Part shown: positions 2,901 to 61,990 of the stretch, piece after piece
Position numbering within the stretch: the first letter of the stretch is position 1
Layout: each line of letters opens with the position of its first letter
DNA from: Porphyridium purpureum
Taxonomy: Eukaryota > Rhodophyta > Bangiophyceae > Porphyridiales > Porphyridiaceae
NCBI GenBank assembly: GCA_008690995.1
Contig: VRMN01000001.1
Location: 4,464,001 to 4,528,000, forward strand
Reading direction: 5' to 3'
DNA length: 64,000 nucleotides
Notes under the pieces: model-generated
Told to the model about the DNA's origin: nothing
What the model saw: the letters and a program-made list of their open reading frames with translations, nothing else
Databases searched by the model: none
Program-made: the position numbers and the translations under genes

Positions 2901-3697
2901 CGTGGAATTTTAGGGTTCCGCCCCGAGAGACGCCGTAGGGTTTTGAGTACAAAACCCTAGAAAGTTCTATGATGAAAGATTGTTCGAGAAGCGTGATGAT
3001 CTCGGACCTGCGAAATGTTTGTCATTGTCGTTTTGTGTGGCCTTGTGCAAAGGTCAAAGGCCGGCCGAAGCTTCTGGATTCGTTCTTGACGCGCCCTCCC
3101 GGCCATTTTCCGGATACGTGGCCGGCTGTGGTTGCGAGTTGTGGAACGAATCAAAACCTGTGGTGGAAATTCGTCCTGTTGGAGAAATTTGTTCTCCCGT
3201 CCTTGCTGGAAAGAGCAAGGACGAAGGGTATAAAAGGACGAAGGGGCAAGCTGGTTCCCAGGAATTTCCAGGTCAAGGTAGAAGAAGAGGTAAGGGCAAA
3301 CAGAATAAAAAGAGAATTGGTTAGTTGGATTGAGGCAGTCGTTGGAAGACTTGGGTTGGATTTGCGGGAGAGGCACGCTAGCGTGTTGTGCGAGCGGATA
3401 TCGGTCTGGAGTGTTTTTAAAAAGGCAGCTGGGGTTTAAAAGTACCTTCCATCACCCTTCACTTGTCAAGACCGGTCCACTCCCTCTCGTAGTCCCCTAT
3501 AAGTTGAATTTTCTGTCCTCTCTTCCTTTCTAGCCACTTTTCTCTGATTGTCCTGCTTGTCCTTCCGTTCGTTTCGGTGTGTCGGTTCGTCATCGGTTTG
3601 TCAGTTTCCGGGGTGTGGTGGTTTCCAGTTCCTGTTATCGGTGAAGCGGTCCGGTTTTGTTGATTCGGTTACAAAGCGGAGAGGGAGAAATTCCAAG
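2901..3697 (+). repeat. 5' LTR (797 bp)
   Basis: It matches 7865-8661 almost base for base. Within it the outer part starts TGGAATTT and ends AAATTCCA, a perfect terminal inverted repeat, flanked by two shared bases on each side. A TATAAAA box lies at 3229-3235, and a palindrome with arms TAGGGTTTTG and CAAAACCCTA lies at 2936-2959. The 139-156 codon frames found in both LTRs are chance frames. Confidence 0.95.
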
Positions 3698-3726
3698 TGG
3701 TATCATCGCCCGGTTGTTTGGAGAGA

Positions 3727-4674
3727 ATGGAAAGCCATGAAATGGAAATGAATGTCCCGCAGGAGAATGCGGCATGGATTGAGGCAGCTAATCAGCTGCA
3801 TGCGCGCATTGCGGGACAGGAGATGATGATGGCACAAGTGCAGGAAGCGAATCGTAACCTCCATGAAATGATGCAAGTTTTGTTGCGCCAGCAGACCGTG
3901 GCGTCTGGGTCTGGTGACAACGATCGTGCCATGGCCGCGTTAATTGGGCGCAGTTTGAGAAAGTTTGATGGTCAGCGTGACAAGCTCGTTGTCAATGAAT
4001 GGCTGATGCGAATGAAGAGCGACCTGGATATCTGCATGCCCGCAGGTGCTTTGGACTCGCAGAAAGTGATTGTTGCAAGTCGCTTTTTCGAGAGGGACGC
4101 AGCGCTGCTTTGGGCAGCTCGTCCGGAGGAGCAGAGAAAGGGCCTTGCAGAGGCCGGATGGGATGCGTTCGCAAACTTCGTGCGCACAGCGTTTGAGCCG
4201 CCGCAGGCGCATTTGACAGCGCGCACCAATCTGTATCAGTTGAAGCAAGGGAAAATGACGGTCGCAGAATTTGAGCAGAATCTCAGGATGACAGCGTTGT
4301 CAGTTGAAGATGTGACAGATGCAGAACTGAACACCATCTTCACGCTGGGCTTGAAGGAGAAACTGCGTATTGAGGTGGCCCGTCAGGACACAAGGACCTT
4401 GGAAGAATCACTGAAAGTTGCGTTGGCAGCTGAGCAGGTTGCAAAGTTCGGAGGAGATATGAGTCAAGTGATCAAGAACTCGTCATCGACTCATAGCAGG
4501 GCGTTCTCGTCGCATTCTGGTAGCGCACCAATGGATTTGGGAGCCATGGACAAGCGGAAGTCTGGCAAGACCAAAGTGAAGTGTTACCATTGTGGAGAAC
4601 GTGGACACATTAAGCCCAAATGCCCTAAATTGAAGGAGCGCTTGGCAGGTGGTCCGCCAGAGCCGGAAAACTAA
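3727..4674 (+). CDS. gag: Retrotransposon Gag protein with CCHC zinc knuckle
   Basis: The 315-residue frame begins at the ATG at 3727. The middle section has the character of the Ty3-type retrotransposon gag domain: LRKFDGQRDKLVVNEWLMRM, then WDAFANFVRTAFEP and YQLKQGKMTVAEFEQNLRM. Near the C-terminus a single zinc knuckle reads CYHCGERGHIKPKC, the nucleic-acid-binding CX2CX4HX4C signature. Gag forms the particle that packages element RNA. The gag type is unusual for an element whose pol is Copia-like. Pol follows after a short gap in another frame. Confidence 0.88.
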   Translation: MESHEMEMNVPQENAAWIEAANQLHARIAGQEMMMAQVQEANRNLHEMMQVLLRQQTVASGSGDNDRAMAALIGRSLRKFDGQRDKLVVNEWLMRMKSDLDICMPAGALDSQKVIVASRFFERDAALLWAARPEEQRKGLAEAGWDAFANFVRTAFEPPQAHLTARTNLYQLKQGKMTVAEFEQNLRMTALSVEDVTDAELNTIFTLGLKEKLRIEVARQDTRTLEESLKVALAAEQVAKFGGDMSQVIKNSSSTHSRAFSSHSGSAPMDLGAMDKRKSGKTKVKCYHCGERGHIKPKCPKLKERLAGGPPEPEN

Positions 4675-4712
4675 GACCTCGAGAGCCAAGACAGGAGGAG
4701 ATCTCGAGGGGA

Positions 4713-7700
4713 ATGGAGCCTCCTGTAATGGGTGTTGTGGAAGGTGTTGCGCACGAGGGTGCGAGGTCAAGGCTCTTCTACAAACATGGGAAAGTGAGTG
4801 GTTCAAAAATCGACTTCTTGATTGACAGTGGAGCGTCGCATAATTTCCTGGGGTCCCGATTCTTGGACGCAAGCGTAAAGTCCAGTTGCGATGAATGCAT
4901 GGTCGAGCTTGCGGGAGGACAGAGAATGAAGGTGCACGGCCCCATTGTGCTTGCGGTGGACCTCGGTTTCTGGATAGGGAACGTCGAGTTTTATATCGGT
5001 CCCATTCGTATGGATGCCATCTTAGGGTGGAAATGGCTCAAGATGGTGAATCCTAAGATTGATTGGCAGAAGGGACTGATGGAAACGAGGCCCGAGGGGA
5101 AGGAAATATGCACGTTGGAAAATGTTGAAGAAGTGGTTCCCGAGCTTGACGGGAAAAATCAGAGCGTGGCTGCTTCGGAACACGAGTTGACTCACATGCC
5201 TATGCAAAGAGACTGTGAGACGTGTGTCGTGGCGAAGATAAAGCGACGCCCGGCCCGAAGGCTGGAGAAAGATGTCAGTGCATTGTCATTCAATGATGAA
5301 GTCGGAATTGACTTGGTGGAGCCTGGGCGAAATGTGAAGTCGGTAGATGGTTCAAAGTTTATTTTGACGCATATCGACAGAGCCACAGGATGGGTGACAT
5401 TGGCGGGGCTACGTGCGAAAACCCACACGGCGGTTGCGGACGCTTGGAAAAGTGTGCAAGCCGGGAGAGGATGGCCGAAGGTTTTGCGAACGGATGATGG
5501 GAATGAGTTCAAGGGAGATGTGGGGAGACTGGTGCGTGAACACCTCATAAAGCACGAGGTGGGGATTCCGTACAGGCCAAACAGTCATGCTGAACAGGAG
5601 CGGTTTCACCACACGCTGAATCAGGGAATCCGTGCGAATCTTGTGCAGGCCGGACTCGGGAAGCGTTGGTTCATGCACGCCGCGCAGCATTTTGCGTTCA
5701 TGACGAATAGACTTCACGTGGGCAGGAAGTCTGGAAAGACGCCGTTTGAATTACGACGTGGTGAAAAATGGTCGCCGAGAAATCTTAGTTTGCCATTCGG
5801 GTGCAAGGTGGTCTACAAAGATGATCAGCCTGACAATAAGTATGCACCGCGAGGAAAAGTTGGCATTCTCGTCGGCGTTGGAGAGCATCCGATGGCAATT
5901 TTGGTGCTTCCTCGGGATGACTGGACGAGTGAGACCCCAAAAGTAATTCGCACTCAGGATTTTAAGGCATTTACCCATGAGTTCCCTTTAAAGGGAATTG
6001 AACGAGAGATGGTGAGCCTGAGCCAGCAGGAAGAGTTGCCAGAAGTGGACGAACCATCCGCGGTTGAAGCGGTGCAGGACTTGGATCGTCGTATCGATGC
6101 TCTCAGAGCTCGAGAAGCGGAGCTTGAGAAAGAGATCGAGGCATTGAAAGTGAGAGTGGTTGACGAGGAACGGGCAGCAGGCACGGGTGGTCCAGTGACG
6201 ATCCCACAGTTGAACTTAACGACTTTGCTGAAAACTGGAGCGGCGTTAGCGTCTGAGCAAGGACGAGCCGCGATGGAAAAAGAAGTCAAATCCATGCTGA
6301 GATTTGGGGTATGGGATGAGAATCCCTTGACGCTGGAGGAGGCCCGGAGGCAACCTGGTGCTCGTTTCGTACGCACACATTTCATTTTCGGTCTGAAATT
6401 TGCTGAGATGCCGGAAGAATTTCGCAAGGTGAAGTGCCGCTTGGTGGCCGGGGGAAACAGGATATGGGGGTCCGATGGAGCTGCGACGAATGACATTTTT
6501 GATTATGAGACGCCTGCTGGTTTGTCAGCTATCCGAATGATAATAGCTGTGGCTGCAATTCTGGGCCTTCAGATTGTTAGCTTCGACATCAGCTCGGCAT
6601 ACCTCCATGCGGACCTGTCTGGGCCACCTACGTTTGCATATTTACCGCGTGAAATTTGTGATTCAAAAGACACAGTAGTCAGGCTGAGAAAGGCGCTGTA
6701 TGGCTTGCCCAGGAGCGGCTCGGATTTCTCACAAGATGCTCGGAGGAGATTGCAAAAGTTCCAGTGGAAGCTCGTGCATGGTGAAAAGAATGTGTACGTC
6801 CGGAGAAATGCTGCAAGTTCGTCAGTTGCGTTGTTGGCTCTGTACGTGGATGATGGTCTATTAGCCTGTCGAGAGGAGGAACGCCCAGGAATCATCGAAG
6901 AATTGAAACAAGAGTTTCTCATAGAAAAAGCACCAGAACTATTGACGGAAGGAGGATCCTTGAGATTCCTGGGGACGAGCATTTCCCTCAAAAATGGGAG
7001 CGTGAGTTTGGCGAATCAAGAGTATCAAGATGTGGTCATTCGGGAATTTGAGCAGGATATTAGACGCGTATTGCGTGCCGTGAAGTCACCATCTGAGAAG
7101 CTAGATGGCGAGGAAGTTCTGAATTATCAAGTCATCTGGAAGACTTTGAAAGTAAGAGAACACGTCGGGAGGCTGATGTGGCTCGCCAGAACGGTTCGAC
7201 CTGATATTGCGTATGCAGTCGGTATGATTGCCCGGTACGTTGACAAGTGGAATGTGGCAGCAGAAAGGCTGCTCGTACGAGTCGTGCAGTATTTGAAAAC
7301 ACCTCGGGAAGCATTGGAGTATCACGTGTTGGGGAATCTCAAGGAAGGCATCAGAGGGGTGAACATTCTTGGATACACGGATGCTGACTTTGCTGGTTGT
7401 CCAGAGAGTCGTGTGTCGACTTCTGGAAGAGCAACGTACTTAGTTGCTGGAGATTACAAGTACCTAGTGGATTGGTCTTCAAGAAAGCAGCGTTTCGTGA
7501 GCTCGTCGACTTCAGAGTCGGAGCTGGTCGCCCTAGAGGAAACTGTGCAACTCTCGTTGTTTCCTGCATTGTCTTTCTTGCGAAGTATACGTGACGGAGA
7601 GTTCTCGGTGATTTTGATGTGTGACAATCAAGCTGTGATGCGAGCAATAGAGATGGGGTACTCGCCAAAGTTGCATCATATGGCGATAACCCGAGCAACA

Positions 7701-7877
7701 GATTTGGCCTGGTTGCATCAGGTGTGCGAAAAGCAGAAACTTGTGAAACTGGCATTTGTGAAGACGGACGAAAATGTGGCGGACTTAATGACCAAGGCCT
7801 TATTTCCGGAGGGCCACATTAAGTGCTGGGAGAAGTTACGCGTCCCTCAGACCGGAAGGAGGAGCGTGGAATTTTAG
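4713..7877 (+). CDS. pol: Retrotransposon Pol polyprotein (protease, integrase, reverse transcriptase, RNase H)
   Basis: The 1,054-residue frame encodes an aspartic protease (LIDSGASHNFLG, then ILGWKWL), a compact integrase zinc motif (HELTHMPMQRDCETC), an integrase core with RTDDGNEF and later PNSHAEQERFHHTLN, a Copia-type reverse transcriptase (FDISSAYLHADL and LYVDDGLLA) and RNase H (GYTDADFAGC, SSSTSESELVAL). This order is diagnostic of Copia. The protease is closer in style to Ty3/chromovirus proteases, so the element looks mosaic. A charged coiled-coil-like linker (near residues 450-490) separates integrase from reverse transcriptase. The stop codon lies a few bases inside the 3' LTR. 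Confidence 0.95.
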   Translation: MEPPVMGVVEGVAHEGARSRLFYKHGKVSGSKIDFLIDSGASHNFLGSRFLDASVKSSCDECMVELAGGQRMKVHGPIVLAVDLGFWIGNVEFYIGPIRMDAILGWKWLKMVNPKIDWQKGLMETRPEGKEICTLENVEEVVPELDGKNQSVAASEHELTHMPMQRDCETCVVAKIKRRPARRLEKDVSALSFNDEVGIDLVEPGRNVKSVDGSKFILTHIDRATGWVTLAGLRAKTHTAVADAWKSVQAGRGWPKVLRTDDGNEFKGDVGRLVREHLIKHEVGIPYRPNSHAEQERFHHTLNQGIRANLVQAGLGKRWFMHAAQHFAFMTNRLHVGRKSGKTPFELRRGEKWSPRNLSLPFGCKVVYKDDQPDNKYAPRGKVGILVGVGEHPMAILVLPRDDWTSETPKVIRTQDFKAFTHEFPLKGIEREMVSLSQQEELPEVDEPSAVEAVQDLDRRIDALRAREAELEKEIEALKVRVVDEERAAGTGGPVTIPQLNLTTLLKTGAALASEQGRAAMEKEVKSMLRFGVWDENPLTLEEARRQPGARFVRTHFIFGLKFAEMPEEFRKVKCRLVAGGNRIWGSDGAATNDIFDYETPAGLSAIRMIIAVAAILGLQIVSFDISSAYLHADLSGPPTFAYLPREICDSKDTVVRLRKALYGLPRSGSDFSQDARRRLQKFQWKLVHGEKNVYVRRNAASSSVALLALYVDDGLLACREEERPGIIEELKQEFLIEKAPELLTEGGSLRFLGTSISLKNGSVSLANQEYQDVVIREFEQDIRRVLRAVKSPSEKLDGEEVLNYQVIWKTLKVREHVGRLMWLARTVRPDIAYAVGMIARYVDKWNVAAERLLVRVVQYLKTPREALEYHVLGNLKEGIRGVNILGYTDADFAGCPESRVSTSGRATYLVAGDYKYLVDWSSRKQRFVSSSTSESELVALEETVQLSLFPALSFLRSIRDGEFSVILMCDNQAVMRAIEMGYSPKLHHMAITRATDLAWLHQVCEKQKLVKLAFVKTDENVADLMTKALFPEGHIKCWEKLRVPQTGRRSVEF

Positions 7878-8661
7878 GGTTCCGCCCCGAGAGACGCCGT
7901 AGGGTTTTGAGTACAAAACCCTAGAAAGTTCTATGATGAAAGATTGTTCGAGAAGCGTGATGATCTCGGACCTGCGAAATGTTTGTCATTGTCGTTTTGT
8001 GTGGCCTTGTGCAAAGGTCAAAGGCCGGCCGAAGCTTCTGGATTCGTTCTTGACGCGCCCTCCCGGCCATTTTCCGGATACGTGGCCGGCTGTGGTTGCG
8101 AGTTGTGGAACGAATCAAAACCTGTGGTGGAAATTCGTCCTGTTGGAGAAATTTGTTCTCCCGTCCTTGCTGGAAAGAGCAAGGACGAAGGGTATAAAAG
8201 GACGAAGGGGCAAGCTGGTTCCCAGGAATTTCCAGGTCAAGGTAGAAGAAGAGGTAAGGGCAAATAGAATAAAAAGAGAATTGGTTAGTTGGATTGAGGC
8301 AGTCGTTGGAAGACTTGGGTTGGATTTGCGGGAGAGGCACGCTAGCGTGTTGTGCGAGCGGATATCGGTCTGGAGTGTTTTTAAAAAGGCAGCTGGGGTT
8401 TAAACGTACCTTCCATCACCCTTCACTTGTCAAGACCGGTCCACTCCCTCTCGTAGTCCCCTATAAGTTGAATTTTCTGTCCTCTCTTCCTTTCTAGCCA
8501 CTTTTCTCTGATTGTCCTGCTTGTCCTTCCGTTCGTTTCGGTGTGTCGGTTCGTCATCGGTTTGTCAGTTTCCGGGGTGTGGTGGTTTCCAGTTCCTGTT
8601 ATCGGTGAAGCGGTCCGGTTTTGTTGATTCGGTTACAAAGCGGAGAGGGAGAAATTCCAAG
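7865..8661 (+). repeat. 3' LTR (797 bp)
   Basis: Same length as the 5' LTR and differing at about two positions, which implies recent insertion. The purine-rich tract GGAAGGAGGAG ends directly before it, and the right-hand GTTTT target copy follows it. Its TATA box points toward the cryptochrome gene. Confidence 0.95.
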
Positions 8662-19265: not shown

Positions 19266-19805
19266 CTACTCTGCTGCGGCGGTAGCTGCTTCTGTTTCTG
19301 CAGGCTTCTCGGCCTGGTCAAAGCTTTCACCCACGAGATCTGGGACGCCCTCGTCATCACCGGCGGCCGCGCCTTCGCTGTCCCTCAGCCCTGAAAGGCT
19401 ACCCTCAGCCTGGAGCTTGGCCATGAGCTCCTGGAGTTGCTGCATGTTTCCACCGCTCAGCTGTGACAAAAGCTCGGGCGAGACGAGGTCCGCAACCTCC
19501 TTGACTTCGTGGTTACCCGCCAGCGAAAATGTGTTTGCCGAGATCGAGCCGAGCAGCTTGGGATTGCTAAAGACCATCACCTTGCCGTCCTCGCGGAACA
19601 GATGCGCCTCCTCGCAGTTCGGGATGGGCGACAGCCCCAGCTTCTTGAGCGTGCTCTGCACCTTCTTGTCATCTGTGGGAGCCGCCTTGTGCACGGCCTT
19701 TTTCTTTCTTCGCACCGTGCCCTTGCCGCCCGTCCGCGCCATCGCCGCCATCTTCTCCAGCTTGGCCAGCTTCTCCGTGTTTGTCTTTACCCCGCCATCC
19801 TCCAT
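19266..19805 (-). CDS. BTF3: Nascent polypeptide-associated complex subunit beta (BTF3)
   Basis: I start at the ATG at 19805, giving 179 residues (MEDGGVKTNTEKLAKLEKMA), which matches the usual NAC-beta beginning; the frame upstream starts at GTG. The ribosome-binding motif appears as TVRRKKKAV, and the NAC domain includes DDKKVQSTLKKLGLSPIPN and SISANTFSLAGNHEVKEVA. The C-terminus is acidic and Ala/Glu-rich. NAC-beta pairs with NAC-alpha at the ribosome exit tunnel to shield new chains. It is divergent from the next gene, and the 400-bp gap carries two copies of the AACCCTC promoter motif. Confidence 0.94.
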   Translation of the reverse strand: MEDGGVKTNTEKLAKLEKMAAMARTGGKGTVRRKKKAVHKAAPTDDKKVQSTLKKLGLSPIPNCEEAHLFREDGKVMVFSNPKLLGSISANTFSLAGNHEVKEVADLVSPELLSQLSGGNMQQLQELMAKLQAEGSLSGLRDSEGAAAGDDEGVPDLVGESFDQAEKPAETEAATAAAE

Positions 19806-20087
19806 CTTGACCGACGCGCCCGGGTCGTCTCCTACTTCCCGCCCCCGAAACCCACCCACTTCGATTCCCTCCACTTATCTTGCGCGCTCAACAACCTCAA
19901 GAATCGCCCGCTTGGTTTCTCTACAACACCGCCACCGACCGCGACACCCTTGCGCGCCCCTCCTTCGCATCTGCTACCAAAACAGACTCGTTTACTCAGG
20001 AAAGCGCAGGCACAGACGCAAGAGACGACGGCTTCAGCTGTACATCGCGCTGTACTCTGTCATGCCGCATTGCACAGCTCCGTGCAG

Positions 20088-20126: not shown

Positions 20127-20205
20127 CGGGCATTCATCTGTTGGGTAGCTGGTGCGCCGCTGGTGGCGAAGACAGAGAGGCGTGGGTGTGCGCAGCAGCG
20201 GCAGC

Positions 20206-20862
20206 ATGGAGGCCGGCCCGGCGCTGAGGGCGCGGGTGCGTGGCATTGCCACGCGCCGTCTGGTTGCCGCATTTGCCGTGGCGACCATATTACCTGTGCT
20301 TGTGGTTGTGAGCTTACGCGTGAACTTGCCGGCCAGCGCGGCGGTGGCTTCGTTGGCGGCGTCAGGCAGCCCCGTGGCCTCGGCGTCGGGCAGCGAGAAC
20401 ACCACGCAGGACGTTTTGGAACACAATCGCGATGGTATACTAGTCCGTATCCCGCAGGATGCGAGCAAGAAGCCAGCGGTTCGCGCACTGCTGGAAGGGC
20501 CGTCGGGATGACAAATGGGGAGCCAAGCTCCCGAAATGAAGAAGTTTTGGACCGCGAGCTCGCGTGAGTTTAAAATTCGGCACGTCGCGCCGCGCGTGCG
20601 AGGTAGGTTTCAGATAGTTCTCATCGACGAGGAAGACGCAGTCGTCAAAGTAGTTCCTCTGAATGGTGCTGACACCAGACACCGGCCGGTGTCGGCACAG
20701 GACATGGAGAGATTGCTGGACGAGCACGGCCTTAGACTTTCTGAGGGCGAACTGAAGGCAATGGCGGACTCTGCGCGGACTGCGATGGAAATGAGACGAG
20801 TCAAGCTGAGTGATCTTCGCATCAAGTCACCGCGAACTGCCATCGTGCGACCAGCCATTTGA
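20206..20862 (+). CDS. Candidate selenoprotein or read-through protein: one frame with a single in-frame TGA at codon 102
   Basis: From the ATG at 20206 the frame codes 101 residues, meets TGA at 20509-20511, and continues in the same phase through CAA and an ATG at 20515 for 115 more residues to TGA at 20860. The first half has one membrane segment (LVAAFAVATILPVLVVVSL, about residues 18-36) after a basic N-terminus, then a Ser/Ala-rich stretch. The second half mixes strands and helices (RFQIVLIDEEDAVVKVVPL, AQDMERLLDEHGL). The codon lies in a flexible context (EGPSG-TGA-QMGS). No cysteine is encoded and no family is recognised. A SECIS-like fold lies at 20875-20951. Other readings are stop read-through, two proteins by reinitiation, or a strain-specific nonsense change. 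The codes on both sides look equally coding. Confidence 0.55.
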
Positions 20863-20874
20863 TGAACTCGATGA

Positions 20875-20951
20875 GTGGGCACAATGACTATGACGACTCG
20901 TTCCGTAAAAGTTGAAAAGGCTGGGAGCGAGTCCGAAACTTTTGCGCCCGT
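20875..20951 (+). other. SECIS-like RNA fold in the 3' flank of the TGA-containing gene
   Basis: The lower helix pairs 20875-20884 with 20942-20951, including GGGC with GCCC, two G-U pairs and one A-C mismatch. An internal loop follows, then the core AUGA at 20890-20893 opposite GA at 20935-20936, giving tandem G-A pairs. The upper helix pairs 20895-20904 (GACTCGTTCC) with 20924-20933 (GGAGCGAGTC), ten pairs with one wobble. The apical loop starts GTAAAA, so AA falls 13 bases after the UGA core. These are the parts and spacing of a eukaryotic SECIS element. It begins 13 bases after the second stop. Confidence 0.55.
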
Positions 20952-21721
20952 GTTTGCGTTTGTGTTCGAATCTTTCTGTTGAATGGGAGGGAAGAAAACA
21001 CCAAAGAACGGAAAAAAAAGAAAAAAATGAAAAATGAAAAGAAGAAAGAGAGTCTCTTTTCTTTTGTACGTGTGTGCGCGGCGATGTACGCGGAGACTGC
21101 GGATTTTGCGGAGACTACAGGCGCAGAGGGGCTTCGAGATCATGCTTGCAGTCGTTGTCCACATGTGTGAGTTTCAGTTCGAGCCTCTTTGCTCGTCGCT
21201 CCGTATTTCTCCAAACAAGAGCAAGTTGGAGACGCCGCTCTCGTTTGATTTGTCTGGTGGACGTACGGCCACACATTATATGAAGACTAACGTCAGAGGG
21301 GCGAGCAGAAGTGAGCATATGGTCACTCAGTCTTGGAATCCTGTACAATAAAGGCCGGGGCTACGATAACGGACCAAAACGAGCTCCGAGCTGGACGCGG
21401 TCGACGTTCTGCTTTGGTGCTTCAGGGAACATGTTCGAGGTGCACGATGCCATGTCGCAGCATACCACGTCCGGGATCCACTTGCACACTTTCCGGGAAA
21501 CGACAAAATCTAGTTTATGTTCTCAACAGGTTGTGAAGTAGCGGAGCAGCGGGTGCCCACCCACAGAGGCATTGTGTGAATTGCACGGACTCTGTTCGAC
21601 GGAGGAACCCCAAAAGGCAGCGTCACCACACGAAACGATCGATCCGCTGTCGCAAACCCACACACACACCGACACAGAGTTAGACGAGCAGCGCTTTGCC
21701 TTGCATGTGATGAATGATGCC
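20952..21721. other. Intergenic region downstream of the candidate selenoprotein
   Basis: No gene is seen. A long A/G-rich run lies at about 20990-21055, probably untranslated. The right part is the 3' flank of the minus-strand TM9SF gene, and CA-rich sequence lies near 21655-21675. Confidence 0.45.
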
Positions 21722-23668
21722 TTAATCCACTCGCACGGCAGCAAAGATCCGCCGCACAAAAATTAAACTGCTCTGGAAGCCAACAAAGCCACACATGAGA
21801 CTGAATGCAAACGAAACCAGGGTCATGTACGCCAAGTAAGTGATTGTACTGACCACGTGACTGCCGAGCTTCGCGACGCCGACGGTCTGGAAAAGGAATA
21901 CAATCGAGTACAAATACACATACACGCCGCTAGACGCACAGCATCCGAACGCGTTCCACCACCAGTGATAATTCTCGCTCGAGAGGCTCATGTAAACAAA
22001 CACTATGCCGACTTCTGCACAAGTCACGATCAGCAGAACGAGCACAACAAACAGAAGACCGAACATGTAGTAGATTTGGCTCCTCCAAAAGGAATTGAGA
22101 ATGAACGCCAGTTCTACAAAGACCACACCATACGGAATGAGACCAGATAACAGCGCATAGTATTTGTAGGCAATGCCAAACGGTGGGGGAGGGATCTCGC
22201 GCGGAATGTGATTGGTTCTCGTCGGAAACTCGACTGGCTTTCCCCGGAAGCCCAAATATGCCCCAAGGACATTCATGGGCACCGAAAGACCGAACCACAG
22301 GAAGGTCAGAAAGACCAGAGTTAGGAACGGTATCGCCGACGTCGAGCGCTTGATTGTCATAAAAAGATTCAGACAGATCATGAGCGCGAATGCGACACCC
22401 GGAAACAATAGTGCCGATGCCAGTGTCACGTGCTTGTTGCTGGAGCCCTGAAGCATGGCGTAGGTGCGTGCCGCCATATATCCGCAGATCGCTGAGCTAA
22501 ATACCCACGAGTACAGCATGGCCGAAAGCAGCCCGCCGCGGTTCGCCGGTGATAGGAAGCCGAGCGCTGCAAACACGAGCACAGTACTTGTGACGAACAA
22601 AAGTTGCGCACCGGAACCAACCATCACCGATAGCGCTTCCTTGTGGACTGGCGGTCTGAACACATCGCCGTGCACCAGCTTCCAGCCGCTGTCATCCTGT
22701 ATTTCGTCGTCTTCTTCTAGGCGGTTGTAGCGCACAAAGTCCTGATAGATTGTGCGCAGAATGATAAACGCCACCATGGCGGTCAAGAACAGGCCCATAA
22801 AAATGGAGTTGATGATCGAGAACCACAAAACGCCACGCTGCTCATCCGACGCCTTCAGAAGCGGATCCCACCTCGTCGCCCAGCGGATCGGACTTTCCTC
22901 AAAGCTCACCGAGTAGGTCGTGAAAACTTTGGCGCCAACCTTAACTTCCTGAAGTAGTTGGTCGCGTGTGAACTCACACGGCTTGTCCGCATTGTGCGCA
23001 ACGGACGCTGGGACCACATGGAAGCCCACAACACGATACACAGGCTTATTGCCGGATGCCAAGAATGACTGCGTGACGTGTGACGGGACGTGATACAGTA
23101 CCTTAAACGCAAGATGATTGAACAGGAAAAACTTGCCATCCTTCTCGGCCCCGAGACGATATCCGAGAGAGTAAGCGCTCTGCTCGCCGTCCTTGCCCAC
23201 AATGGTGTGCTCCATTACGACCGGCATGTTGTCCATGTTGAGCCGAACACTGTAGCTGTCCTTGATGCGTGAAATGAGCCGCTTTGTCATTTTCTCGTCC
23301 AAGACGGTGGGCTTGTCACACAGCAGCTTGCACTTCTCCTCGACCAGCATGGCGATCTGGAACTGCGTAGGGCTGACCATTTCGCCAGACAGGATCTGCC
23401 CCAGGTTACGATGCTTTGACTTTGGGCGCTTTTCCGGCTGGCAGAAGGGCAGCGAGTAATAATTGAAGGGCACCTTGTTCACGGGCGACGTCAGCCGATT
23501 TGCAAACACTTCCAGCTTGAAGCCAGCCTCATAATCGATCGGTGCGATGCCAGGCAAATAGAACGCGTGCGCGCTGTTCACCAACACGATTGCCAGAGTG
23601 ACCACCACGGCCCATACCACCACACCACATCGCAACTTCCCGGGCGGATCCATCGCCCCCGTTCGCAT
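21722..23668 (-). CDS. TM9SF/nonaspanin (EMP70) nine-transmembrane protein
   Basis: The 648-residue protein has a cleavable-type signal near residues 14-35 and a lumenal domain to about 290 with family motifs (FYLPGIAPIDYEAG, VNKVPFNYYSLPFC, NLGQILSGE). Nine hydrophobic spans follow. The C-terminal half includes LFPGVAFALMICLNLF, the cytoplasmic loop EFPTRTNHIPREIPP and YSIVFLFQTVGVAKLG, all typical of TM9SF. The protein ends AAVRVD, an Arg version of the Lys-x-Asp tail that holds these proteins in the Golgi by binding COPI. Roles in sorting other membrane proteins are known for the family. It is divergent from starch synthase across about 1 kb. Confidence 0.93.
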   Translation of the reverse strand: MRTGAMDPPGKLRCGVVVWAVVVTLAIVLVNSAHAFYLPGIAPIDYEAGFKLEVFANRLTSPVNKVPFNYYSLPFCQPEKRPKSKHRNLGQILSGEMVSPTQFQIAMLVEEKCKLLCDKPTVLDEKMTKRLISRIKDSYSVRLNMDNMPVVMEHTIVGKDGEQSAYSLGYRLGAEKDGKFFLFNHLAFKVLYHVPSHVTQSFLASGNKPVYRVVGFHVVPASVAHNADKPCEFTRDQLLQEVKVGAKVFTTYSVSFEESPIRWATRWDPLLKASDEQRGVLWFSIINSIFMGLFLTAMVAFIILRTIYQDFVRYNRLEEDDEIQDDSGWKLVHGDVFRPPVHKEALSVMVGSGAQLLFVTSTVLVFAALGFLSPANRGGLLSAMLYSWVFSSAICGYMAARTYAMLQGSSNKHVTLASALLFPGVAFALMICLNLFMTIKRSTSAIPFLTLVFLTFLWFGLSVPMNVLGAYLGFRGKPVEFPTRTNHIPREIPPPPFGIAYKYYALLSGLIPYGVVFVELAFILNSFWRSQIYYMFGLLFVVLVLLIVTCAEVGIVFVYMSLSSENYHWWWNAFGCCASSGVYVYLYSIVFLFQTVGVAKLGSHVVSTITYLAYMTLVSFAFSLMCGFVGFQSSLIFVRRIFAAVRVD

Positions 23669-40845: not shown

Positions 40846-41775
40846 ATGTTCCTGCACAGGTGCTGCGCCATGGATCGTGACTTTCGCGACCGGCCGCGGC
40901 AGCTTGGTGACCCCAGAAACCCGCCGCTGTCGCCGCCGCAAAAACTGCCGGGGCAGAGACAGCAGCTGCCTCCTCAGCCGCTGGAGCAGCGGCACCAGCT
41001 GCCGCATCTGCAACCGCCGCCGCCGCCGCCGCCGCTCCAGCAGAGTCACGAATGGCATCAAGCAGAGCCTGCGCCGGCAGAAGCTGTACTGAACAAAATG
41101 TCCCTTGATTTTATTTTGAACCCGAGTCGTGCAACACCCTCGGCACAGTCGTCGATGGTGCCGACGAGTGTACCAATAGGAGACACAGCGCCAGCGACCT
41201 CTGAACGAGCGACTCCATCCGGCAAGTTTGACTGGTCAGAGCCAGCGCCGGACAGTGTCCGAAGCGGCAAAGAATCAGAAGGCACATGTGGCTCCGGCTC
41301 CCTCTCCGAGTCTTCGCCGTCCAAGAATAGGAGCGGTGACAATGCAAGTGGAGAGCGCACCATCCGGCGGCGATGGACCGCGGACGAGGACGAGCTACTG
41401 CGACGCGCGGTCGCGGAGCACGGCGCGCGCGACTGGGTATCTCTTGCGCACCGCTACTTTCCGGCGCGAACCTCGAAGCAATTGCGTGCGCGATGGGTTT
41501 ACTATTTGCAGGACCCGGACCGCAAGCAAGCGCCGTTTACTGATGAGCAGGACCGCATCATTTTGTCGCTTGCCGCGCAGCTGGGCTACAACCAGGGCCA
41601 TCCCGTCAAATGGAACCTCATTGCGCAGCGCATCGGAGGCACCCACAACAGCCAAGAAGTCAAGTTCCGCTTTCACAAGCTCGTGCGCCGCATCTCGGAT
41701 AAAAACACACAACAGGCCACGGAGCAACAGCTCCCTCAAATCGAAGAAAAGCCGGGGCCTGCCGAACGTAAATAG
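40846..41775 (+). CDS. Two-repeat Myb/SANT transcription factor, copy 2 (309 aa)
   Basis: Repeat 1 at about 174-223 (RRRWTADEDELLRRAVAEHG, GARDWVSLAHRYFP, KQLRARWVYYL) and repeat 2 at about 229-282 (FTDEQDRIILSLA, WNLIAQRIGGTHNSQEVKFR) are near copies of the neighbour's, with a small insertion in repeat 2. The first 84 residues are Pro/Gln-rich, including seven consecutive Pro. The ATG at 41098 gives MSLDFILNPSR, matching the neighbour's MSLEYILN, so it is a rival start. The pair arose by tandem duplication. Confidence 0.87.
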   Translation: MFLHRCCAMDRDFRDRPRQLGDPRNPPLSPPQKLPGQRQQLPPQPLEQRHQLPHLQPPPPPPPLQQSHEWHQAEPAPAEAVLNKMSLDFILNPSRATPSAQSSMVPTSVPIGDTAPATSERATPSGKFDWSEPAPDSVRSGKESEGTCGSGSLSESSPSKNRSGDNASGERTIRRRWTADEDELLRRAVAEHGARDWVSLAHRYFPARTSKQLRARWVYYLQDPDRKQAPFTDEQDRIILSLAAQLGYNQGHPVKWNLIAQRIGGTHNSQEVKFRFHKLVRRISDKNTQQATEQQLPQIEEKPGPAERK

Positions 41776-60546: not shown

Positions 60547-61287
60547 TTATTCGGAAAGGTATATGGATTGGTGGAGCGCGCGCAGCTGTTCAAAGCCTGT
60601 GTTTCCAAGAATCGTTTGGTTGTCTTCAAGAATGGTTTGCGTGAGGCCCAGTGCCGCAAGCCTGTCCACCTGTGGGGTTCTCAGAAAGTTGCAAATAGGA
60701 TATGGTGCTCTCCGATCGAAATTGACGGGATCTGTGGGATCCAGGCCATACCACTGATGATTTGGATGGAAGAAGACTGGCATGACTAATTCAGACATGA
60801 CAGGATCCCGCTCGATCCGTTCTTCGAATTCAGCAGCAAATTCAGCGAAAACCTCGAAGGGCTGCGCATCCAAGAAAGAGCCTGGCGGCACCACGAGCAA
60901 ATATGTCGATACGTGCTGCATGTCTGGCGCCACAAACTTCCCCATCTCGCGCTCGATGATTTCGCTCAGTTTATCGAAGCTTGTCACACTTTCGAGCACG
61001 CGCACGAGCATCTTCCCTTCACGCAGCTCCCGTTCTGCAAAGGGACACAACCCAAGTCCAATAACAATGTCTCTGACCCACTTCATCACGCGTTGCTGCA
61101 CCTTAAGGTCAGGCAACTCTCCAGAACTGACGCAACAGGAGGCAACTGCGCGACGCGCACGACATGTCCGGTCCCCAGAAACGCACTTAGGTTTTCCATA
61201 CGAGACCTGCGACAAGTTCTGTGCCGGCCACGGTACCGCGTCCCGCCAGCGTGTGCCGGTGTACGTAAACGCAAGGTTGCTCATCAT
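60547..61287 (-). CDS. DUF1415 protein (246 aa)
   Basis: I start at the ATG at 61287 (MMSNLAFTYTGT). The family signature is WVRDIVIGLGLCPFAERELR near residue 78. FHPNHQWYGLDPTDPVNFDR and RAPYPICNFLRTPQVDRLA follow near 180-210, corresponding to the bacterial DUF1415 blocks for FHPxxxF and NRSPYP. The biochemical role is unknown. The first 60 residues are an extension with Arg and Ser that may be a targeting peptide. The family is best known from bacteria, so transfer or organelle origin should be considered. Confidence 0.85.
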   Translation of the reverse strand: MMSNLAFTYTGTRWRDAVPWPAQNLSQVSYGKPKCVSGDRTCRARRAVASCCVSSGELPDLKVQQRVMKWVRDIVIGLGLCPFAERELREGKMLVRVLESVTSFDKLSEIIEREMGKFVAPDMQHVSTYLLVVPPGSFLDAQPFEVFAEFAAEFEERIERDPVMSELVMPVFFHPNHQWYGLDPTDPVNFDRRAPYPICNFLRTPQVDRLAALGLTQTILEDNQTILGNTGFEQLRALHQSIYLSE

Positions 61288-61537
61288 GCCCCTCGTCACC
61301 TGTTCGTGCACCCTGAAATTTCAGCGACGCGAAAACGGACGACCTGACTCGCGGATGTGCGACTAGCCTGCAAATCCTGTAAATTCGCAGCGCGATTCTA
61401 CTTCAGGGCGATGCACAGACAACCGACGTGCATGGGCCGCGTACTAGGATGGGTCTCGCGGGACTTTCAGCGAAGCGCAGCCGAGTCCTTGCAGCGGCGG
61501 CAGAGGCTAGAACTGGAGGAGATAAGTGAGGTGCAGA
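61288..61537. other. Divergent promoter of the DUF1415 gene and a membrane protein gene
   Basis: No gene is supported; short frames only. It separates the two starts by 250 bp. Confidence 0.5.
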
Positions 61538-61990
61538 ATGGCGCCGTTGGTGTTTGCTATCTCGGGAGAGTTGTCCCCGGCACATGACATTGGAAATGCC
61601 TTCCTCGCGCCCGAACTGCTGTGCGTAGTGGCGGTGGTCGTTTCGCAGCTCTCGATTTTGGCCGTGCGCTTGATGGATCCGGACGGAAGGAGCGACCCGC
61701 AAGGTATGTTGCTGGACGTCACCAAGTTCCTGGCTTCTGTGGGCGGTTGTTCGGCTTCATTTGTGCTAGGACACTGGCAGGGTCTTCATTTACCAGGCGC
61801 TCAGTGGCTGTGCCAGATGTACTACTGGTTGGCAATCATGTCTGCCGCTGTCGCCATTGTCATCCTTGCGTACGCGTGGCATCCATGGACCGTTTTGGTC
61901 GATGTTTTCTCGTGCGTGAAGCAAGCGATTCACGAGACCGAAAGCATTACAGAAGGCAGCTCGCACCGTAGCCGAGAGCCTGAGCACTGA
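61538..61990 (+). CDS. Small unknown membrane protein (150 aa)
   Basis: The ATG at 61538 gives MAPLVFAISGELSP. About three hydrophobic spans are visible: LLCVVAVVVSQLSILAVRL (about 28-46), SVGGCSASFVLGHW (about 70-83) and IMSAAVAIVILAYAW (about 102-118), with a charged tail ending SHRSREPEH. The stretch LLDVTKFLASVGG resembles, weakly, the D-x-SKQ motif of STIMATE/TMEM110-type proteins that act in the ER. I do not claim that identity. Length and open frame support a real gene; the function is unknown. Confidence 0.5.
   Translation: MAPLVFAISGELSPAHDIGNAFLAPELLCVVAVVVSQLSILAVRLMDPDGRSDPQGMLLDVTKFLASVGGCSASFVLGHWQGLHLPGAQWLCQMYYWLAIMSAAVAIVILAYAWHPWTVLVDVFSCVKQAIHETESITEGSSHRSREPEH

Follow-up and report, generated by a model that had tools for sequence, protein, structure and literature searches.

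Does the single TGA that interrupts an otherwise open frame of the red alga Porphyridium purpureum end a protein, or is it read as selenocysteine (Sec)? The frame lies in the window, i.e. the whole 64,000-nt stretch of DNA that was analysed. An earlier note had raised it as a possible selenoprotein gene, with four observations: one in-frame TGA in a 218-codon frame, coding character on both sides of this TGA, no encoded cysteine and a SECIS-like fold downstream. All four observations were reproduced (Table 1). The selenoprotein reading itself gained a Sec-type selenophosphate synthetase (SPS), a Sec synthase (SecS), a likely tRNA-Sec and a SECIS_1 alignment below cut-off, with Sec decoding of TGA 20509 still a step that we infer.

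Table 1. Coordinates of the candidate frame, its neighbours and the SECIS-like element in the window
Feature	Position	Strand	Basis
N half of candidate frame, codons 1–101	20206..20508	+	open frame, codon score 0.178
In-frame TGA, codon 102, proposed Sec	20509..20511	+	sequence
C half of candidate frame, terminal TGA 20860–20862	20512..20862	+	codon score 0.129
Hydrophobic segment, residues 19–37, predicted signal anchor or signal peptide	20260..20316	+	mean Kyte–Doolittle 2.73 over 19 residues; topology inferred
Divergent neighbour, NAC-domain gene	19266..19874	-	PF01849, E 5.7e-16
Convergent neighbour, EMP70 family gene	21722..23668	-	PF02990, E 1.8e-172
SECIS-like element	20877..20949	+	fold and letters; Rfam SECIS_1 aligns 20882–20952
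Helix I	20877–20884 with 20942–20949	+	GGGC(A)CAA with UUG(C)GCCC
AUGA core	20890–20893	+	faces CGAA
Quartet	20891–20894 with 20934–20937	+	tandem G.A/A.G pairs
Helix II	20895–20904 with 20924–20933	+	10 uninterrupted pairs
Apical loop	20905–20923, AAAA at 20907–20910	+	19 nt

Layout and coding character of the split frame

The candidate frame runs from the ATG at 20206 to 20862 and comprises 218 codons with the TGA counted; one plus-strand frame lies in the 1.85 kb gap between the NAC-domain gene and the EMP70 gene. The nearest in-frame stop upstream of the ATG is a TAG ending at 20148, and the start context is strong (A at -3, G at +4). Cysteine was absent from the whole translation, which is weak evidence: when long ORFs were cut into 165 pieces of 218 aa, 14 of these were Cys-free as well. 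No CxxU-type motif was present.

Two further features of the window were noted away from this locus. A frame for an RVT_2 (Copia-type) polymerase (4713–7877) lies between two frames of equal length (2969–3439 and 7933–8403); the whole (2969–8403) may be a retrotransposon with these two as its long terminal repeats. In addition, a region of strong hairpins on the minus strand (40938–41057) weakly matched several unrelated families of microRNA and sRNA, in each case below the cut-off.

Coding character was scored, in bits per codon, by a codon model whose training set was 55 long ORFs (41,306 codons). The scores of 0.178 for the N half and 0.129 for the C half were exceeded by only 0.52 and 0.73 %, respectively, of off-frame chunks of equal length; an earlier model trained on ten ORFs of the window had given 0.206 and 0.131. 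The weakest part was the 34 codons immediately after TGA 20509 (0.077, exceeded by 6.7 % of off-frame chunks). The candidate was compared with all frames in 264 kb of the genome that a single stop divides into two parts of at least 80 codons each. Of these 109 split frames (66 TGA, 27 TAG and 16 TAA), the candidate ranked first when ordered by the codon score of the weaker half. It was also the only one of the 66 TGA-split frames in which both halves exceeded 0.1, as they did in two of the 16 TAA-split frames, each over long gene-like runs. Codon statistics, rather than homology, thus place this in-frame TGA inside a coding frame.

Selenocysteine machinery of the genome

The genome (22.16 Mb, 46 contigs) encodes an SPS (TIGR00476, E 1.2e-55; L019:1147-2517, in G000 C18 around 60887–61645) whose frame continues upstream through a TGA (L019 1300–1302), giving LTNFSKLKG-U-ACKLPQEEL. 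This TGA lies at the active-site position, which is Sec in SPS2; in human selenide, water dikinase 1 (PDB 3fd5), the aligned residue is the Thr of LTRFTELKGTGCKVPQD. From this alignment, the SPS with its TGA counts as a firm selenoprotein of P. purpureum and, judged by homology, TGA is read as Sec elsewhere in this genome.

A SecS gene was found in the same genome (E 3.2e-100; L004, from about 1626 on). One intron probably interrupts this gene (GTAAGC...TTCTTCAG), the genome itself being described as intron-poor. A tRNA-Sec candidate (L002:1501-1587) has a UCA anticodon and CUUCAAA in the anticodon loop, and fell short of the Rfam cut-off (37.1 vs 47 bits; E 8e-5 genome-wide), with several non-standard pairs in the alignment. 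ARAGORN did not report it; the tRNA-Sec of Cyanidioschyzon merolae was likewise missed by ARAGORN, according to the available text of PMC2375036. We consider this locus a probable tRNA-Sec. The eEFSec domain PF21131 had no match in the genome, nor in any of the control genomes.

The other selenoprotein families searched for in the genome were GPx, Rdx and TGR. None of the three GPx matches had an internal stop and one was read as Cys, the single Rdx match carried Cys (CPGC), and the TGR profile had 11 matches, the two best of which ended without a GCUG tail.

The SECIS-like element and the SPS 3' UTR

The stem that follows the candidate frame has the anatomy of a SECIS element (AUGA/GA core, helix II, AAAA loop and helix I), with uninterrupted pairing in helix II and seven pairs in helix I. 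It begins 14 nt beyond the end of the frame, and its AUGA core is 378 nt past TGA 20509. In a search of 1.2 kb, Rfam SECIS_1 aligned with it at 16.6 bits against a gathering cut-off of 35; the E value of 6.6 spans 4227 families and therefore corresponds to about 0.0016 for SECIS_1 alone in 1.2 kb. The element was not listed in a genome-wide SECIS_1 search with E up to 10, in which the only match listed (23.7 bits) lay elsewhere with no evident selenoprotein, and about 28 chance matches would be expected genome-wide at 16.6 bits by extrapolation. It was also not listed in an Rfam scan of the whole window with E up to 10, appearing only when a short stretch was searched. Taken alone, and by Rfam score genome-wide, the element is not significant.

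The fold was not more stable than its shuffled versions (z -1.06 and -0.89), and its support therefore comes from anatomy and place, not from energy. When the 859-nt 3' region was simulated as 20000 Markov versions, 61 contained an element of the candidate's grade, and 22 contained one with a helix II as strong. In real DNA (528 kb of strand), the SECIS descriptor found two places of this grade, the candidate included, and a similar rule gave 187 matches in 80 Mb of strand of random DNA. When both strands of the window were scanned, six of 16 loose matches passed the strict rule, and the candidate had the strongest helix II. The other good match, which lies in the 200-kb sample 394 nt past a TPR-like frame, was put down to chance, no split frame being seen upstream of it.

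The SPS gene resembles the candidate in having one in-frame TGA and a 3' UTR AUGA...AAAA element with a similar 5' arm; it differs in belonging to a known enzyme family and in its less clean SECIS, and no sequence relation between the two was seen. The SPS 3' UTR carries CTATGACGAGCGCGATCTGCAAAA 146 nt past the stop codon, and the candidate carries CTATGACGACTCGTTCCGTAAAA. The motif CTATGACGA-N(8-13)-AAAA occurs at four places genome-wide, including these two; the others are inside a 475-codon ORF and at a site without a fold. The shared motif is only suggestive, since a reversed-motif control also gave four matches and the pattern was defined after both sites had been seen. The SPS 3' element failed the strict stem tests, was no better than shuffles (z +1.06) and was not listed by Rfam up to E 10. 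Either SECIS_1 may be insensitive here or the true SPS SECIS may be located elsewhere, and its value as an in-genome yardstick is uncertain.

The 5' arm of the candidate was compared with that of SPS across ATGA sites. Among 1935 others, 14 were as similar to the SPS arm as the candidate's arm or more so; with AAA at apical distance, none of 165 reached the candidate's likeness (maximum 6 vs 7). This likeness lends weak support. The wider pattern TATGACG-N(10-13)-AAAA gave 21 rows genome-wide vs 23 for its reversed control. Twenty places were folded (16 pattern sites, L041, L042, SPS and the candidate), among which the candidate had the lowest stem energy (-15.5) and the SPS site did not pass. 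The near misses (L046, -14.3; L056, -14.2; L047, -12.3) were rejected, with GA 58–82 nt away and branched folds. L046, in the spacer past a kinase-like frame, was judged an inverted repeat and not a SECIS because its own ATGA is paired in the free fold. A long inverted repeat that mimics a SECIS motif, with its own ATGA paired, lies on the reverse strand near 2027 of L060 (G000 C1:865300-867500).

Relatives and readings of the candidate gene

No homologue of the read-through protein was found among 5.8 billion proteins up to E 1, in collections that seem to hold few algae, so that these searches say little about other red algae. The C half, searched up to E 10, retrieved only a 108-aa prediction, identical to a piece of it. 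No second copy was found in the genome, and six exact peptide patterns and tblastn found no occurrence in viral or bacterial/archaeal contigs. Searches of the locus against Pfam, NCBIfam, PDB sequences and, at gathering score, Rfam gave nothing above cut-off, and no Pfam or NCBIfam profile matched either half or the whole protein above cut-off; a PDB thioredoxin (3qdn, E 0.53) was dismissed as not significant. Modelled by AlphaFold2 without an alignment, the full-length protein reached a pLDDT of 47.3 and its C half one of 48.7, values too low to justify a fold search. Neither Sec/Cys conservation at codon 102 nor any of the outcomes that the earlier note had named as refuting (orthologues with an ordinary sense codon at 102 or an end at the TGA, transcripts spliced around it) was seen, no orthologue having been found in which they could show.

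Among known selenoproteins, SELENOK and SELENOS are small and carry a single Sec and, N-terminally, one hydrophobic segment. The candidate shares the N-terminal hydrophobic segment and the (putative) single Sec; it differs in that the Sec would be mid-protein and not near the C-terminus, and no Pfam match was obtained at cut-off for either half or the whole. The membrane selenoprotein (MSP) of Ostreococcus is similar in its narrow distribution and predicted membrane location, and differs in having two Sec residues where the candidate has one in-frame TGA; hypothetical selenoproteins 1–3 of Ostreococcus, also eukaryotic selenoproteins of narrow distribution, are comparable to the candidate in this respect (all as described in the available text of PMC2375036).

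The best single explanation, to which we assign a probability of roughly 0.6, is that the gene encodes a lineage-restricted, membrane-anchored selenoprotein of a new orphan family with Sec102 as its sole Cys/Sec residue; several modest lines agree on it, together with the use of Sec in this genome. One intronless gene would give rise to a 218-residue protein that is N-terminally membrane-anchored or secreted, as predicted from its hydrophobic segment. The SECIS in the 3' UTR would recruit SBP2 and the Sec elongation factor with Sec-tRNA(UCA), and the ribosome would insert Sec at 20509 and continue to 20862; without Sec, the product would be a 101-residue membrane stub. The protein would have no thiol or selenol besides Sec102 and hence may act as a one-selenol redox centre, with recycling by an external thiol (e.g. 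glutathione).

The main rival, rather unlikely in our estimation, is a recent nonsense mutation, a null allele that segregates or a wrong base in the assembly, in an ordinary orphan gene that had a sense codon at 102 until recently and has a coincidental SECIS-like stem. Gene-like codon usage on both sides of the TGA is what this would predict, a conserved TGA was seen in no relative and the SECIS score is modest; against it stand the rarity of SECIS-grade stems in the Markov versions of the 3' region (61 of 20000) and the decoding of Sec by the genome.

It is improbable that the locus makes two products, a 101-residue protein ending at 20509 and a second that starts no earlier than the ATG at 20515, through reinitiation or under a promoter of its own. 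This ATG is two codons after the TGA, and the 108-aa database prediction covers the C half alone, but the two parts are in the same frame with one codon between the stop and the ATG, the start context (C at -3) is poorer than at 20206 and the SECIS is unexplained. The last point also weighs against plain read-through at TGA-CAA, which would yield a short anchored protein and, rarely, a Sec-free extended one and which we rate a shade lower still: the extension is coding and the nucleotide after the TGA is C, but to our knowledge the context TGACAAATG matches no strong read-through motif.

Least probable of all is a spliceosomal intron that removes the TGA (e.g. GTGAGC 20308 to TTTCAG 20613): 223 frame-keeping GT–AG pairs of at least 50 nt span it and introns do exist in the genome, as in SecS, but the removed stretch looks strongly coding (codons 35–101 score 0.184, exceeded by 0.58 % of off-frame chunks), the best donors have five of six matches, no listed acceptor has more than nine of 12 pyrimidines, the SecS intron has better splice sites, and only 235 introns are reported for P. 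purpureum (PMC10866757, citing Bhattacharya et al. 2013, in the available passage).

The selenoprotein reading fits into a literature in which red algae have very small selenoproteomes and P. purpureum is among seven algae with one to 10 selenoproteins (PMC7539508, available text); the candidate may be among those counted there. Complete Sec machinery is described in some red algae outside the Bangiophyceae–Florideophyceae (PMC6627142), Porphyridium not being named in the main text as available. Titles and abstract openings among the matches listed for selenoproteins of Porphyridium purpureum, Porphyridium and red algae (SECIS, SPS2, lineage-specific) did not point to the candidate gene. For C. 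merolae, Sec machinery was reported with no selenoprotein found, and lineage-specific selenoproteins without database homologues were given as one possible reason (PMC2375036, available text).

The candidate offers a concrete case of this homologue-less class in another red alga, and genes of such a class would escape homology-led pipelines. If the reading is true, the kind of gene is one already known and the mode of decoding is not new, and the protein would be a test case for a selenoprotein without a cysteine partner of its own. With odds only slightly better than even, it would found a new lineage-restricted family that has no known Cys form and a lone Sec as its only Cys/Sec residue, and would be among the very few selenoproteins of a red alga; the Sec machinery and a Sec-type SPS would then have been retained in part on its account.
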